A DNA stretch of 45,253 nucleotides from Actinomycetes bacterium (GTDB lineage Bacteria > Actinomycetota > Actinomycetes > Mycobacteriales > Micromonosporaceae). Positions 33,022-41,234 of the stretch are shown one piece after another. A model generated the notes under the pieces. That model was given only the letters and a program-made list of their open reading frames with translations. It was not told where the DNA came from and searched no databases. The position numbers were made by a program, and so were the translations under genes. Location of the stretch: the NCBI GenBank assembly GCA_021793335.1, contig JAJYSW010000002.1:1-45253 (forward strand), written 5' to 3'. How positions within the stretch are numbered: the stretch's first letter is position 1; each line of letters begins with the position of its first letter.

Positions 33022-33741
33022 TCACCGGTCATCGCCTACCAGACCGGCCTCATAGGCGATGATCGCCGCCTGCACACGGTTCTGGGTCCCGAGCGTGGCG
33101 AACAGCGCACTGAGATACTGCTTCACGGTGCCTTCCGACAGGCGCAGAGACCTCGCGATCTGGGCGTTCGACCAGCCCTCGCCGACACCGGAGAGCAACT
33201 CCCGCTGGCGCGAGGTGAGCCCGCCGACCACCGACCGGGCCCGGACGCTGCGGTCCAACTGCACCCGGTTCTGGCGGCGAACCAGCCAGCGCCCGACTCG
33301 CGGCGAGAACGCGGCGCCGCCGCCGGCGAGGGCGTGGACACCCGCGATCAGGTGGTGCGGATCGTCGGACTTGAGGAAGAACCCCAGCGCCCCGAGCCTG
33401 ACGGCCTCGGCGATGTAGTGCTCGTCAGAGAACGTGGTGAGCATCGCCACCGGTGCGCGAACACCCTCCCGGTGCAATCGTTCGAGCGTGCCTATGCCGT
33501 CGAGCCGGGGCATCTGGATATCGAGAAGCACGACATCGAGCAGGCGTCGACGGGCGAGATCGACGGCTTCGAGGCCATCGGCGGCCTCGGCGGCGACCTC
33601 GATGCCCGGTGAGGTTGCCAGAATGCCGGCGATGCCCGCGCGCACGAGCCCGTCGTCGTCGGCGAGCAGCACTCGCACCGGCCCGTCACGATCGGGACGG
33701 GGACCGCCGGGAAGCTCGGGCTCGTCGAGTGGAACGGTCAT
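33022..33741 (-). CDS. NarL/LuxR-family two-component response regulator
   Basis: 'VRVLLADDDGLVRAGIAGIL', 'VVLLDIQMPRLDGIGTLERL', C-terminal 'LTSRQRELLSGVGEGWSNAQIARSLRLSEGTVKQYLSALFATLGTQNR'. Confidence 0.95.
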   Translation of the reverse strand: MTVPLDEPELPGGPRPDRDGPVRVLLADDDGLVRAGIAGILATSPGIEVAAEAADGLEAVDLARRRLLDVVLLDIQMPRLDGIGTLERLHREGVRAPVAMLTTFSDEHYIAEAVRLGALGFFLKSDDPHHLIAGVHALAGGGAAFSPRVGRWLVRRQNRVQLDRSVRARSVVGGLTSRQRELLSGVGEGWSNAQIARSLRLSEGTVKQYLSALFATLGTQNRVQAAIIAYEAGLVGDDR

Positions 33742-35171
33742 GGAGGAGGGATCATATCAACGGCGACGACTCGCCCATCGGCGAAGCAGACCCGGTAGAC
33801 GTCGTCACGCTCGAAGAAACTGCGGGACGCCTCGTAATAACGGCACGTCGATCCGACCGGTTCGGGCAGCGCCGCCCGCGGAGGGTCGAGCATCTCCATC
33901 GGCGGCAACGACCGCTCCACCTCGGAACGGGCATCACCGACTTCGATCGCCGCGAAACGCTCGGGCGGCAGGACCGAGGCGAACGTGGCATACACGAAAT
34001 AACCGAACACGACCAGCATGATCATGCCCAGCATCGCCACCGGGATCGACCAGGCCAGACGAGTCGCCCGCCGATTCCGCCGCTCGGCCCCCGCCGCCGC
34101 GGCGGTGAGCGCGCCCAGGCGCGGCGGCCGGTCGCTATCGGCGGCGACCGACGGCATCGACACACAGGGAAGCCGCACGGTGACGGCAAAGACCGCGCCC
34201 CGCTCCACCGTCAAAACGCCGCCCAGGATCGCAACTCGGTGCCGGAGCGCGACCATGCCGTGCCCGGTCGACGCCGACGGCGGCGGCATCTGCGACACCG
34301 GGTTGCGCACGCCAAGAGACACCTCGTCCCCGACGACACCGACCGCGATCCGCACCGCCGCTCCAGGGGCGTGCTTGGCGGCGTTGGTGAGCCCCTCCTG
34401 CAGGGCTCGAAGCAGCGCGGCATGCGTGTACTCGTTGACGGCATCCTCGACTCCGGGCTCGATATCGCTGTGCACCGTGACGCCGGAGGACCGAGCGCGT
34501 TCGATGACCTCCGCCAGACGCAGACCGCTCAGCGACGCCGCGGCGCCGGACGTCCGCTCCGAGAGCAGACGGACGGTCTCGCCGAGTTCCTCGGAGGCGG
34601 CTGCGGCGTTCTCCCGGATGCGCTGCATCTCGGCTCTGGCGTGGTCCGGCAATTGCTCATCGAGGGAGAGTCGGGCGGCCTGAACGGCGATCAGCGTCAA
34701 CCGGTGCCCCAAGCCGTCGTGGATCTCGCCGGCCATGGACTCCCGCTCCCGCGCCACGGCCCGTTCGATGCGCGCATCGTGCTCTCGGGCCTCGGCGAAG
34801 GCGAGGTCCCAGCCTCGCCGAACATAGTCGCGCCTGGTCCGCAGCATGCCGGTCACCAACAGGGCCACCAGGAAGCAGCAGGCATAGGTCATCCCGGTGA
34901 CCAGCCCGAGGACCGCGTCCGACCAGGCGACCTGGCCGACCAGTGCCGCGGTGGGCAGCGCGGCGGCCACTGCGATGGCCGCGGACAGCAGATATCGCTT
35001 CGTGAACGCGAGGAGGACACCGGTGCCGACCGCGGCCGGTACCAGTACCACCGGGCCGAGGCCCGAAGACCAGAGCGAGGCCGTTGCGAAGAGCGCGCCC
35101 GCGAAAGCCGCCGCGACCGGCGACGCCACGCGGACCAGTCGGCTCGATGGCGGGGACTCGTTGTCGAACAT
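33738..35171 (-). CDS. NarL-type sensor histidine kinase with C-terminal TM plus extracytoplasmic domain
   Basis: HisKA_3 'RERESMAGEIHDGLGHRLTLIAVQAARLSL', HATPase 'ALQEGLTNAAKHAPG', 'GHGMVALRHRVAILGG'; then TM 'LAWSIPVAMLGMIMLVVFGYFVYATF' and ~80-aa tail. Confidence 0.92.
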   Translation of the reverse strand: MFDNESPPSSRLVRVASPVAAAFAGALFATASLWSSGLGPVVLVPAAVGTGVLLAFTKRYLLSAAIAVAAALPTAALVGQVAWSDAVLGLVTGMTYACCFLVALLVTGMLRTRRDYVRRGWDLAFAEAREHDARIERAVARERESMAGEIHDGLGHRLTLIAVQAARLSLDEQLPDHARAEMQRIRENAAAASEELGETVRLLSERTSGAAASLSGLRLAEVIERARSSGVTVHSDIEPGVEDAVNEYTHAALLRALQEGLTNAAKHAPGAAVRIAVGVVGDEVSLGVRNPVSQMPPPSASTGHGMVALRHRVAILGGVLTVERGAVFAVTVRLPCVSMPSVAADSDRPPRLGALTAAAAGAERRNRRATRLAWSIPVAMLGMIMLVVFGYFVYATFASVLPPERFAAIEVGDARSEVERSLPPMEMLDPPRAALPEPVGSTCRYYEASRSFFERDDVYRVCFADGRVVAVDMIPPP

Positions 35172-35278
35172 GCCTCCAATTTAGGAAGGCGCAGCGGAAG
35201 CGGACACTCGCTTTCGTTAGGTCTCGGGCTCGCTTTCATCACTGCCGGCGGTCGCCTCGGCGCTCTAGCGTTGCCCGC

Positions 35279-35884
35279 ATGCTCGACCACTTCGTCCACC
35301 TCCTCGATCTCGCCGGTGAACACGGCGCGGCGGTCCTGGCGGTCGTCTTCATCGCCGCGGCGGCGGAAGCGGCGTTCGGTCTCGGCGCGCTCGTGCCCGC
35401 CGAGACCGCCATCGTCTTCGCCGCTCTCGCCCTTGCGCAGAGCCCGCTGCTGATCGCCGCCGTCGCCGCGGCCGCCGCGGGGGCCTTCGTCGGCGATCAT
35501 CTGGGCTTCGCCGTAGGCAGGAGGCTCGGTTCGGGCATCGTGGGCACGCGCGCAGTACGCCGGATCGGCCCCGACCGGTGGCTTGCGGCCACCGGCTTCG
35601 TCGAGCGGCACGGCACTGGGGTCATGATCGTCGCTCGGCTACTGCCCGGTGTCCGTACCGTGGTCGCGGCGGCGGCCGGGGCGGCGCGGATGCGTTATTC
35701 ACGCTTCGCCCTCGCCGCGGCCATCGCGGCCGTCGCATGGTCGTCGCTGTGGGTGCTCGGCGGTGCGGCGTTGGGCTCGGCGCTCCTCGCGTTCGCCGAC
35801 CGGGCGGCGCTGCCGGTCGCGGCGGGGGCGGCGGTCGCCGCGGTGGGCTTCCTCCTCGTCCGCCGGTTGCGGAGACGCACATGA
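35279..35884 (+). CDS. DedA family membrane protein
   Basis: 'LGALVPAETAIVFAALAL', 'GAFVGDHLGFAVGRRLGSGIV', 'FVERHGTGVMIVARLLPGVRTVVAAAAGAARMRYSRFALAAAIAAVAW'. Confidence 0.9.
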   Translation: MLDHFVHLLDLAGEHGAAVLAVVFIAAAAEAAFGLGALVPAETAIVFAALALAQSPLLIAAVAAAAAGAFVGDHLGFAVGRRLGSGIVGTRAVRRIGPDRWLAATGFVERHGTGVMIVARLLPGVRTVVAAAAGAARMRYSRFALAAAIAAVAWSSLWVLGGAALGSALLAFADRAALPVAAGAAVAAVGFLLVRRLRRRT

Positions 35885-36525
35885 ACCGGGCAGGGCCGAC
35901 CTGGCGGACCGTTCCCAACCTCGTCACCGCGATCCGATTCGTGCTCGTCGTACCGGTGGTGTGGCTCCTGCTGAGCGGCGCGCAGCCGCTCGGTGCGGCC
36001 GTGCTCGCGGCGGTCTTCGGCATGACGGACTGGGTGGACGGGTTCCTCGCTCGCCGACTCGACCAGGCGAGCCGGCTCGGGAAGGTCCTCGATCCGCTCG
36101 CCGATCGGGTGGGGATCGGGTGCATCGCGATCGCCTTGGCGTTCGCGGGGGCCGCGCCTTGGGCGGTGATCGCGGTTTTTCCCGTCGTCGACATGGTCGT
36201 CGGCGGGCTCTACCTGGCGCGGCGAAGGGACGCTCGACTGGAGGTCGGCCGGCTCGGCAAGGTCCGTACCGGTGTCACAATGGCGGCGATCTTCGTCCCG
36301 GTGCTCGGCGTGAGACCGGGATTCGATGTGGTGCTCCAGCTCGGGCGGATCGGCTTGGCCGTCGGGGCGGCGCTCCACATCGGCGCCGGCTCAGGGTATG
36401 CGCGTCGGATGCTTCCGTGCGGGGCCCGGCGAGGACCGCTGGGCCGCGAATCGATCGCGTGTCCCGGTGGGGCGGGCGCAGCCGGAGCGTCCCCCACCAC
36501 GGCCGCGCGGCCGCCAAAGTCATGA
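35881..36525 (+). CDS. CDP-alcohol phosphatidyltransferase family protein
   Basis: 'GMTDWVDGFLARRLDQASRLGKVLDPLADRVG'; 4-nt ATGA overlap with the upstream DedA gene. Confidence 0.9.
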   Translation: MNRAGPTWRTVPNLVTAIRFVLVVPVVWLLLSGAQPLGAAVLAAVFGMTDWVDGFLARRLDQASRLGKVLDPLADRVGIGCIAIALAFAGAAPWAVIAVFPVVDMVVGGLYLARRRDARLEVGRLGKVRTGVTMAAIFVPVLGVRPGFDVVLQLGRIGLAVGAALHIGAGSGYARRMLPCGARRGPLGRESIACPGGAGAAGASPTTAARPPKS

Positions 36526-38377: not shown

Positions 38378-38944
38378 TCACCGGGCCGGTGCTTCGACCG
38401 TCCGGCCCTTGAACCACCAGCCCAGGGTGATGCTGCCGGCGGCGATCGAGGTCATGGTCGTGACCACCGACAGCGGCCCGGGGCCGAAGATCCATCCGAT
38501 CAGCAGGCCCATGCCGACCATGTAGCAGGCCCACAGGACCCCGGCCACCGCCGCCATGAGGCCGTGGCGGTAATCGGGGACGGCCGTGGCCGCCCACGCC
38601 AGTGCCGTCCGCCCGGCGGGCAGGAACCGGGCGACCAGCGTGGTCGGCCCCGGGTGGCGCATCAGCGTCGCCCGCAGCCGGGCCTCCAGGGCGGCGACCT
38701 TCGCCGATCCGAAGAACGGCCGCCGCCACTTGACCCTGGTGAGTCGCAGTGCCCGGTAACCGAGGACGTCGCCCAGCCACGAGGCCGTCGCCGCGCAGAG
38801 GACGAGGCCCACGATCAGAGCGGTGTTCCCGACCAGGAATCCGGCCAGCGCCGCGATCGTGGTGGCGCTCGGGAGCATGGGCACGAAGAAATCTGCGATG
38901 ACGAGCGCGGCCAGCAGCAGGGCCACGGTCAGCAGGGGGAGCAT
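38378..38944 (-). CDS. DedA family membrane protein
   Basis: 'MLPSATTIAALAGFLVGNTALIVGLVLCAATASWLGDVLGYRALRL', 'LMRHPGPTTLVARFLPAGRTALAWAATAVPDYRHGLMAAVAGVLWACYMVG'. Confidence 0.88.
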   Translation of the reverse strand: MLPLLTVALLLAALVIADFFVPMLPSATTIAALAGFLVGNTALIVGLVLCAATASWLGDVLGYRALRLTRVKWRRPFFGSAKVAALEARLRATLMRHPGPTTLVARFLPAGRTALAWAATAVPDYRHGLMAAVAGVLWACYMVGMGLLIGWIFGPGPLSVVTTMTSIAAGSITLGWWFKGRTVEAPAR

Positions 38945-38993
38945 CACGGTGCGTTCTCGACGGGGCGGGGCCGGGCGGCCCCGCCCCGGGCCG

Positions 38994-41234
38994 CTATTTC
39001 GCCGCGCCGACGAGCTCGCGCTCGCCGGTCTTCGCATCGTCGGCGAGCCGGTGCTGCAACTGCTCGCCTTCGACGTCCATGTTCGGCAGGATGCGGTCGA
39101 GCCACTTGGGGATCCACCAGCCGGAGCGGCCCAGGATCGACATGACCGCCGGGATGATCACCATGCGCACCACGAACGCGTCGAACGCGACGGCCGCGGC
39201 CAGGCCGAAGCCCATCGAGGCGATCAGGGATTCCCCGCTGAAGATGAACGCGGCGAACACGCTGATCATGATGAGCGCCGCGGCCACGACCACACGGGAA
39301 GAGTGCGCGTAGCCCTCCTGGATCGCGGACTTGGGGTCCGCGCCGTGGACGTACGCTTCACGCACACGGGTGAACAGGAAGATCTGGTAGTCCATCGCGA
39401 GGCCGAAGACCAGGCCGATCATGATGATCGGCATGACCGACATGATCGGTCCGGGCTGTTCGACGTTCATCAGGTCCGAGGCCCAGCCCCACTGGTAGAC
39501 GGCGACGAGCGCGCCGAGGGCGGCGAAGACGCTCAGCATGAATCCGAGCGTGGCCGTGACCGGCACCAGGATCGAGCGGAACACCAGCAGCAGGATCAGC
39601 GTCGCGAGGCCGACGACGATGAGCAGGTACGGCACGAGCGCGTCGTTGAGGCTGTCGGAGATGTCGATGTTGATGGCGGTCGCCCCGGTGACCGACCAGT
39701 CGGCCGCCGCGTCGTCGGCGAGGAGGTCGCGGAGGTCGTGGACGAGCCGGTTGGTCGCCTCGTCGGCCGGAGCGGTCTGGGGGATGACGGTCACCAGGAC
39801 GGTGTCGCCGTCCTCGTTCGGCATGGCCGGGCCGACGACGGCGATGCCGTCGAGGCCGTTCAGGTCCTCGGTGACCTGCTGGGCGGCCGCGAAGGGATCG
39901 GCGGTCTCGGCGAGGTCGCCGACGATGAGCAGCTGACCGTTGAATCCGGCGCCGAAACCCTCGCTGATCAGGTCGTAAGCCTGGCGTTGAGTGGTCTCCT
40001 CGCCGAACGAGCCCGCGTCGGGCAGCCCGAGTTCGAGATCGGCGGCGGGGATCGCGATCACGCTGAGGCCGACGACGCCGAGCAGACCGACGAGGACGGG
40101 GCGGCGCGTGACGAGGCGGCCCCAGCGGCGGCCGCCGTTGGGCTTCTCGTCGTGGCGGCCCTCGGCGATGCGGTTGCGCTGGCGGCGTGTGAAGACGCGC
40201 TTGCCGGCGAAGGAGGCGAACGCCGGGAGCAGGGTCACGGCGATGATCACGGCGATGAGGACGGTGATGGCGGCGGCGACGGCCATCTCGGTCAGGAACG
40301 GGATGTTCACGACCGACAGGCCCAGCAGCGCGACGATGACGGTGAGTCCGGCGAAGAACACCGCCGAACCGGCGGTGCCGACGGCCCGGCCCATCGCCTC
40401 GGCGCGGGTCTTGCGGTTCTCGACCTCGCCGAGGGCGGCGAGTTCATTGCGGTAGCGAGAGAGGATGAACAGCGCGTAGTCGATGCCGACGGCCAGGCCG
40501 ATCATGGTGGCCAGCATGCCGGTGGACTCGCTGACGTTCATGAACGCGGTGGCGGCGGTGATCGCGGCCGTGGTGAGCGCGACGCCCAGGACCGCGGTGA
40601 TGATCGGCAGGCCGGCGGCGATCAGCGCGCCGAAGGTGATGATGAGGACCAGCAGGGCCACGGCGATGCCGATGAGCTCGGTGGAGCCGACCTCGGGGAT
40701 GGCCTGGAGGACGTCGCCGCCGACCTCGATGCGCAGGCCCTGGGCCGCGGCGTCGTCGACGGCGTCCTGAAGGTAGTCGACGGTCCGGTCTTCGAGCTCC
40801 ATCGCCGGGGCGGTGTAGGCGACCTGCATGACGGCGATGGACTGGTCCTCGGGGGAGATCATGCCGATCGGGTTGCCCTCGGGGTCGACTGCGAAGGGGC
40901 TGGTGACGCTGTCGATCTGGGGGGATTCGGCCATGGTCGCGGCCAGCGCCTCGATGAGGGCCGCGTTGTCCTCGTCGAGGACGGTCTCGCCCTCGGCGGC
41001 CTGGAAGACGATGCTCGCGGAGGCGCCGTCGGCGCTCATCTGGGGGAAGCGTTCTTCGAGCAGGTCGAACGCCTCCTGTGATTCGGTGCCGGGGAGGACG
41101 AACTCGGGGTTGGTCTCCTGTTCCAGGGCGGCCGCTGCGGCGGCGACGCCGCCGATGACGAGGACCCAGACGGCGAGGACGAGCCACCGCAGTCTGAATG
41201 ACCCTCTGCCGAGACGGTAGAGGAAGGTTGCCAC
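38994..41234 (-). CDS. MMPL family RND transporter
   Basis: 'MLATMIGLAVGIDYALFILSRYRNEL', 'MPIIMIGLVFGLAMDYQIFLFTRVREAYVHGADPKSAI' paired MMPL motifs; ~12 TM. Confidence 0.95.
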   Translation of the reverse strand: MATFLYRLGRGSFRLRWLVLAVWVLVIGGVAAAAAALEQETNPEFVLPGTESQEAFDLLEERFPQMSADGASASIVFQAAEGETVLDEDNAALIEALAATMAESPQIDSVTSPFAVDPEGNPIGMISPEDQSIAVMQVAYTAPAMELEDRTVDYLQDAVDDAAAQGLRIEVGGDVLQAIPEVGSTELIGIAVALLVLIITFGALIAAGLPIITAVLGVALTTAAITAATAFMNVSESTGMLATMIGLAVGIDYALFILSRYRNELAALGEVENRKTRAEAMGRAVGTAGSAVFFAGLTVIVALLGLSVVNIPFLTEMAVAAAITVLIAVIIAVTLLPAFASFAGKRVFTRRQRNRIAEGRHDEKPNGGRRWGRLVTRRPVLVGLLGVVGLSVIAIPAADLELGLPDAGSFGEETTQRQAYDLISEGFGAGFNGQLLIVGDLAETADPFAAAQQVTEDLNGLDGIAVVGPAMPNEDGDTVLVTVIPQTAPADEATNRLVHDLRDLLADDAAADWSVTGATAINIDISDSLNDALVPYLLIVVGLATLILLLVFRSILVPVTATLGFMLSVFAALGALVAVYQWGWASDLMNVEQPGPIMSVMPIIMIGLVFGLAMDYQIFLFTRVREAYVHGADPKSAIQEGYAHSSRVVVAAALIMISVFAAFIFSGESLIASMGFGLAAAVAFDAFVVRMVIIPAVMSILGRSGWWIPKWLDRILPNMDVEGEQLQHRLADDAKTGERELVGAAK

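Follow-up and report, generated by a model that had tools for sequence, protein, structure and literature searches.

A BamE-like domain anchored at the C-terminus of an AbsA1-like histidine kinase, a candidate sensor of cell-envelope stress in actinobacteria

The window analyzed here, a 45,253-nucleotide stretch of DNA from an actinomycete of the Micromonosporaceae (assembly GCA_021793335.1, contig JAJYSW010000002.1), contains a kinase-regulator gene pair facing away from two genes for membrane and lipid functions (Table 1). The kinase ORF is an intact gene encoding a sensor histidine kinase of 477 aa, and its stop overlaps by 4 bases the start of the gene for a NarL/FixJ-type response regulator. 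On the divergent side, the gene for a DedA-family protein is likewise joined, through a stop-start overlap of 4 bases, to a gene for a probable CDP-alcohol phosphatidyltransferase. The presence of the DedA gene next to the kinase is conserved in the genus of the window, and the CDP-alcohol phosphatidyltransferase Pfam family also occurs among the neighbors of related kinases. A second DedA-like (VTT) membrane protein is encoded elsewhere in the window, at 38378-39037.

Table 1. Features of the kinase locus and its divergent neighbors (window coordinates)
Feature	Position	Strand	Basis or remarks
NarL/FixJ-type response regulator (Response_reg + GerE)	33022..33741	-	Pfam
Sensor histidine kinase	33738..35171	-	4 TM - HisKA_3 - HATPase_c - TM5 - extracytoplasmic tail (predicted)
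BamE-like tail domain, predicted extracytoplasmic, aa 396-477	33741..33986	-	Tail model, Foldseek
Cys462, invariant, second tail strand	33786..33788	-	Homologue conservation and tail model
Cys443, invariant, first tail strand	33843..33845	-	Homologue conservation and tail model
Fifth TM helix (TM5), aa 375-393	33993..34049	-	Hydropathy and AlphaFold model
HATPase_c domain, aa 252-334	34170..34418	-	Pfam; DesK-like fold
HisKA_3 dimerisation/phosphoacceptor domain, aa 142-205, H151	34557..34748	-	Pfam
Four N-terminal TM helices, aa 15-33, 38-56, 61-79, 87-105	34857..35129	-	Hydropathy and helices in AlphaFold model
Direct repeat CTCGCTTTC-N13-CTCGCTTTC, perfect	35207..35237	+	107-bp kinase/DedA divergent region
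DedA-family (VTT domain) membrane protein, divergent from kinase	35279..35884	+	Pfam VTT_dom, E 8.3e-18
Probable CDP-alcohol phosphatidyltransferase	35881..36525	+	Motif DxxDGxxAR-x8-GxxxDxxxD in translation

The catalytic core of the kinase is of the NarL/DesK type. HisKA_3 was detected with an E-value of 1.4e-10 (42 bits against a Pfam cut-off of 24), HATPase_c with 4.6e-5, just under its cut-off, and Foldseek ranked DesK first among the structures similar to the core. No Pfam domain was found beyond aa 334, the region in which the initial annotation, made from the sequence alone, had placed a C-terminal membrane segment; hydropathy analysis located this segment as TM5, which is followed by 82 residues that include C443 and C462, and assigned a marginal extra segment (aa 313-331) to the interior of the ATPase domain. 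In the full-length AlphaFold model (pLDDT 86.5, pTM 0.57), the basic cytoplasmic linker and TM5 form a single continuous helix spanning aa 351-398. We hold this architecture with high confidence. It had been interpreted as inverted sensing from the C-terminus, and the C-terminal module is indeed real, but the inversion was overstated, since the protein retains a four-helix N-terminal membrane part that went unmentioned. The module is an addition to an ordinary NarL-type membrane kinase, in which the N-terminal part is not replaced. A frameshift or fusion artefact was ruled out by the occurrence of the complete architecture in more than 100 distinct proteins, and a random hydrophobic C-terminal extension by the control HisKA_3 kinases parsed from the same and related genomes, none of which (0 of 36) has a C-terminal TM segment.

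The orientation of the tail was predicted from the charges flanking TM5. On average, the 15-residue stretch preceding TM5 contains 5.4 lysines and arginines and the one following it 0.7, and the number before exceeds the number after in 64 of 65 kinases with such a tail (tail kinases). According to the positive-inside rule, the tail of the window kinase should face outward, as also expected because the number of N-terminal helices is even and the kinase domain is cytoplasmic. The prediction agrees with the extracytoplasmic tail of about 80 residues originally proposed.

Modelled alone with AlphaFold (pLDDT 92.4), the tail shows the TM helix followed by two short helices and three strands, which is the helix-helix-three-strand order of the BamE fold. 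Using Foldseek against the PDB, we obtained Neisseria BamE (5wam) as the first match (probability 1.00, E 0.0096), followed by BLIP (probability 0.94-0.99 for the best entries) and OsmE, with E-values of only about 0.01 and TM-scores of 0.42-0.48 for a query that contained the TM helix; folds ranked lower were unrelated, with E-values near 1. The SmpA/BamE-like character suggested for the tail at the outset is thus supported at the level of predicted structure. At the sequence level, neither Pfam nor NCBIfam contains a family matched by the tail, none of the 63 tails scanned reached the PF04355 cut-off (one member gave E 0.11) or matched BLIP (PF07467), and a search of PDB sequences with the tail profile gave no match. 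The tail profile did match, with E 7.5e-9, a DUF2510-TM-tail protein (L136, 1144-1743, minus strand) that in turn aligns with Pfam BamE at E 0.0076 and BLIP at E 0.021, both under cut-off; judged by these similarities, this protein is a sequence bridge from the kinase tail to the BamE and BLIP families.

The two tail cysteines had been noted as potential disulfide partners, and the model is consistent with this. In the full-length model they lie on strands 442-447 and 458-464, and if residue 447 pairs with 458 in an antiparallel hairpin, then C443 would be opposite C462, in a position to form a cross-strand disulfide. The pair was present in all 65 distinct tails first examined and in 116 of the 119 eventually collected, the three exceptions being pieces of broken or truncated genes. 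Among 62 full-length homologues, the invariant tail positions are L401, G412, P423, C443, and C462, and the remaining invariant positions, including H151 and D152, are catalytic. Two invariant cysteines on adjacent strands, in register under the modelled pairing, could also constitute an extracytoplasmic redox sensor, in which C443-C462 would open and close with the thiol-disulfide state, as the initial annotation had suggested. We consider redox sensing very improbable, because the pair is invariant in every intact copy irrespective of the neighborhood, for which a structural disulfide is the better fit; moreover, redox enzymes are not conspicuous among the genes commonly found near tail kinases.

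Of the 201 genomes searched from the GTDB family of the window, 86 contain the TM segment and tail; a profile search detected them in 48 of 200 order-level genomes and in 54 of 395 at the class level. All of these counts are lower bounds, as few candidates were scored per genome. At the phylum level, the search yielded 8 of 397, nearly all matches again falling within the class. In total, 119 distinct tails were collected in actinobacteria; with 108 of them carrying a kinase motif in the same ORF, the search for further kinase-TM-tail proteins, advised at the outset, revealed a recurrent architecture. In a tree of the catalytic core, one branch (SH-aLRT 100) separates 63 tail kinases from 37 controls, with one label change compared to a mean of 30 after shuffling, a strong though not exhaustive contrast, as the controls were chosen among the highest-ranked HisKA_3 matches in the same or related genomes. 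The tree, in which the tail kinases form one group, does not support the view that different kinases acquired the tail separately. The domain was also observed without a kinase: in ~115-aa single-TM proteins of Streptomyces-like genomes that contain the two-cysteine tail domain (L120, L121, and L124), in the DUF2510-TM-tail protein described above, and in one multi-TM protein.

The family also bears on which part of the protein is the sensor. An alternative to the tail is the N-terminal four-helix domain, which would sense within the membrane in the manner of DesK or LiaS, while the tail would tether the ATPase domain or dock an accessory protein. This alternative is consistent with the DesK-like core, with the retention of about 3-4 N-terminal TM segments by most members, and with the stand-alone membrane-anchored tail domains, which indicate that the domain is used outside kinases. 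However, the mean pairwise identity of the N-terminal TM region is 0.27, close to that of the linker (0.26) and far below that of the tail (0.41; the core reaches 0.49), and one minimal tail kinase (L126, 2172-3305, minus strand) has a single N-terminal TM and yet keeps TM5 and the tail. The conservation of the tail and the minimal kinase both point to the tail as the sensor, neither being proof. We regard sensing by the tail as moderately likely and sensing by the N-terminal domain as unlikely.

The divergent region between the kinase and DedA genes contains a perfect direct repeat that is kept in seven of the eight loci of the genus that were compared. The repeat was absent from the shuffled window and had no occurrences in the loci examined from outside the genus, and a search of the genome that tolerated three mismatches gave no second site; a genome-wide regulon defined by the repeat was therefore rejected. 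The repeat is a good candidate for a binding site of the response regulator, through which the kinase-regulator pair would be autoregulated together with the DedA gene, although it could be a promoter element instead.

To characterize the gene company of the family, neighbors within 6.5 kb were compared between 87 tail-kinase loci (one contig being represented twice) and 40 control kinases from the sampled genomes. A PAP2 phosphatase was found at 26 of the 87 loci and at none of the 40 controls (25/86 vs. 0/40 with the duplicate contig removed, Fisher p 2.3e-5), the cases being spread over several families and plasmids. DedA/VTT proteins were found at 14 of 87 loci vs. 0 of 40 controls (p 0.005), counts that are not independent, as 8 of the 14 come from the genus of the window. 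One ABC-2 permease family was modestly enriched (27/87 vs. 5/40, p 0.03), whereas ABC ATPases showed no enrichment (32/87 vs. 15/40). The neighbors vary by clade, and many loci have no PAP2, DedA, or ABC gene. On the Corynebacterium plasmid pLEW279a from poultry litter (L144), genes for a PAP2 protein, an ABC ATPase, and a permease are divergent from the kinase-regulator pair, a set of genes matching that of bcr-type bacitracin resistance. The Glutamicibacter plasmid pGnB68 (L143) carries the pair in a mobile context, next to IS6100, integron resistance genes, and tet(33). At four other loci in two genera (L086-L089), a P-type ATPase gene is divergent from the tail kinase.

PAP2 proteins include phosphatases of undecaprenyl pyrophosphate. 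DedA proteins have been reported as undecaprenyl-phosphate flippases in three papers (PMC9876793, PMC10127716, PMC12893004). The neighborhood thus favors envelope sensing, the other possibility named in the initial annotation, and we tentatively put forward, at slightly less than an even chance, that the theme shared by the neighbors is the recycling of the cell-wall lipid carrier. A different reading of the same loci is that the tail detects one particular compound, either a peptide antibiotic or a product of the cell itself (of the lipopeptide or bacitracin type), and serves as a switch for resistance or production, without general envelope sensing. The Streptomyces coelicolor kinase AbsA1, which according to PMC9739842 controls antibiotic production, would suit an antibiotic detector, as would the plasmid copies lying with bcr-like PAP2-ABC or resistance genes and the modest enrichment of the ABC-2 permease. 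On the other hand, an NRPS signature was found in none of the tail-kinase loci scanned, so that an NRPS or antibiotic cluster context was dropped, and the window copy adjoins the DedA and lipid-synthesis genes rather than a transporter gene. We consider a dedicated antibiotic detector improbable. The mobile copy beside bcr-like genes on the Corynebacterium plasmid nevertheless suggests that the family is relevant to resistance to cell-wall antibiotics.

The obtained results are consistent with an AbsA1-like histidine kinase whose tail would sense cell-envelope stress, specifically undecaprenyl-lipid stress, and we judge this reading as a whole to be as probable as its opposite. In the proposed mechanism, the C-terminal TM helix would carry the disulfide-stabilized domain of BamE/BLIP fold on the outer face of the membrane, where it would detect an envelope disturbance, most likely the exposed undecaprenyl-phosphate or -pyrophosphate carrier or compounds binding it. 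From there, the continuous helix formed by TM5 and the linker may transmit the signal to the ATPase domain, shifting the balance between kinase and phosphatase activities. The target of the NarL-type regulator would be its own divergent promoter, from which the DedA-type transporter would also be expressed, while in other clades the output of the regulator would be the PAP2 phosphatase or the PAP2-ABC set. A broader and rather doubtful proposal is that the tail is the first example of a class of extracytoplasmic sensor domain not described before, in which a BamE/BLIP fold, anchored by a TM helix and containing an invariant disulfide, would monitor the state of the exposed undecaprenyl carrier or agents bound to it; such a class could explain the signal of AbsA1 and its relatives and would couple sensing to DedA/PAP2/ABC recycling. 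The described role of AbsA1 in antibiotic production, rather than in lipid-carrier recycling, would count against a lipid-carrier signal.

The window kinase can be compared with several known systems. NarL-family kinases of the DesK/LiaS type share the HisKA_3 and HATPase_c domains and a short N-terminal membrane sensor, but are without a C-terminal TM segment or external tail. BLIP (PF07467), which is secreted by actinobacteria, shares the tail fold by Foldseek; it consists of two repeats in a free protein, and its sequence match to the tail domain never exceeded the cut-off. The BamE/SmpA-OmlA and OsmE lipoproteins (PF04355), among them the top Foldseek match, have the same two helices followed by three strands, whereas the tail is not a lipoprotein but is TM-anchored at the C-terminus of a kinase, has no outer-membrane assembly machine, scores under the Pfam cut-off, and contains the invariant cysteine pair. 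Membrane-anchored BamE-like immunity proteins act against Lipocone toxins (PMC12419801); in these too, a BamE-like fold is held by an anchor on the external side of the cytoplasmic membrane and is tied to lipid head-group chemistry, but they have no kinase, and their immunity role evolves rapidly.

Direct literature searches on C-terminal sensor kinases gave no match, and a search on MadS, to which a weak NCBIfam match pointed, gave no papers; AbsA1 surfaced through a Streptomyces review. In AbsA1, four TM segments lie at the N-terminus and one near the C-terminus, which is extracellular, as determined experimentally (McKenzie and Nodwell, 2009, via PMC9739842), and PMC9739842 describes AbsA1 as a self-regulated repressor of antibiotic production with a paired response regulator, whose extracellular C-terminal part is thought to contain the sensor. 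The window kinase likewise combines a HisKA_3 and HATPase_c core and a paired regulator with 4 + 1 TM segments. The two were compared through the published topology. They differ in that AbsA1 acts as a repressor of antibiotic production, while the window copy has DedA and lipid-synthesis genes as neighbors. AbsA1 probably belongs to the tail-kinase clade, because none of the controls has a C-terminal TM segment and all kinases seen with one are members of this clade. The review consulted names no signal for AbsA1-type kinases, and the predicted fold, the candidate disulfide, a family of more than 100 members, and the PAP2/DedA link together offer a concrete hypothesis. The initial annotation had treated the topology as a novelty that an already described architecture would refute, and AbsA1 does so in part: the 4 + 1 layout was already known, and what is new is the fold, the cysteine pair, the extent of the family, and its gene company.
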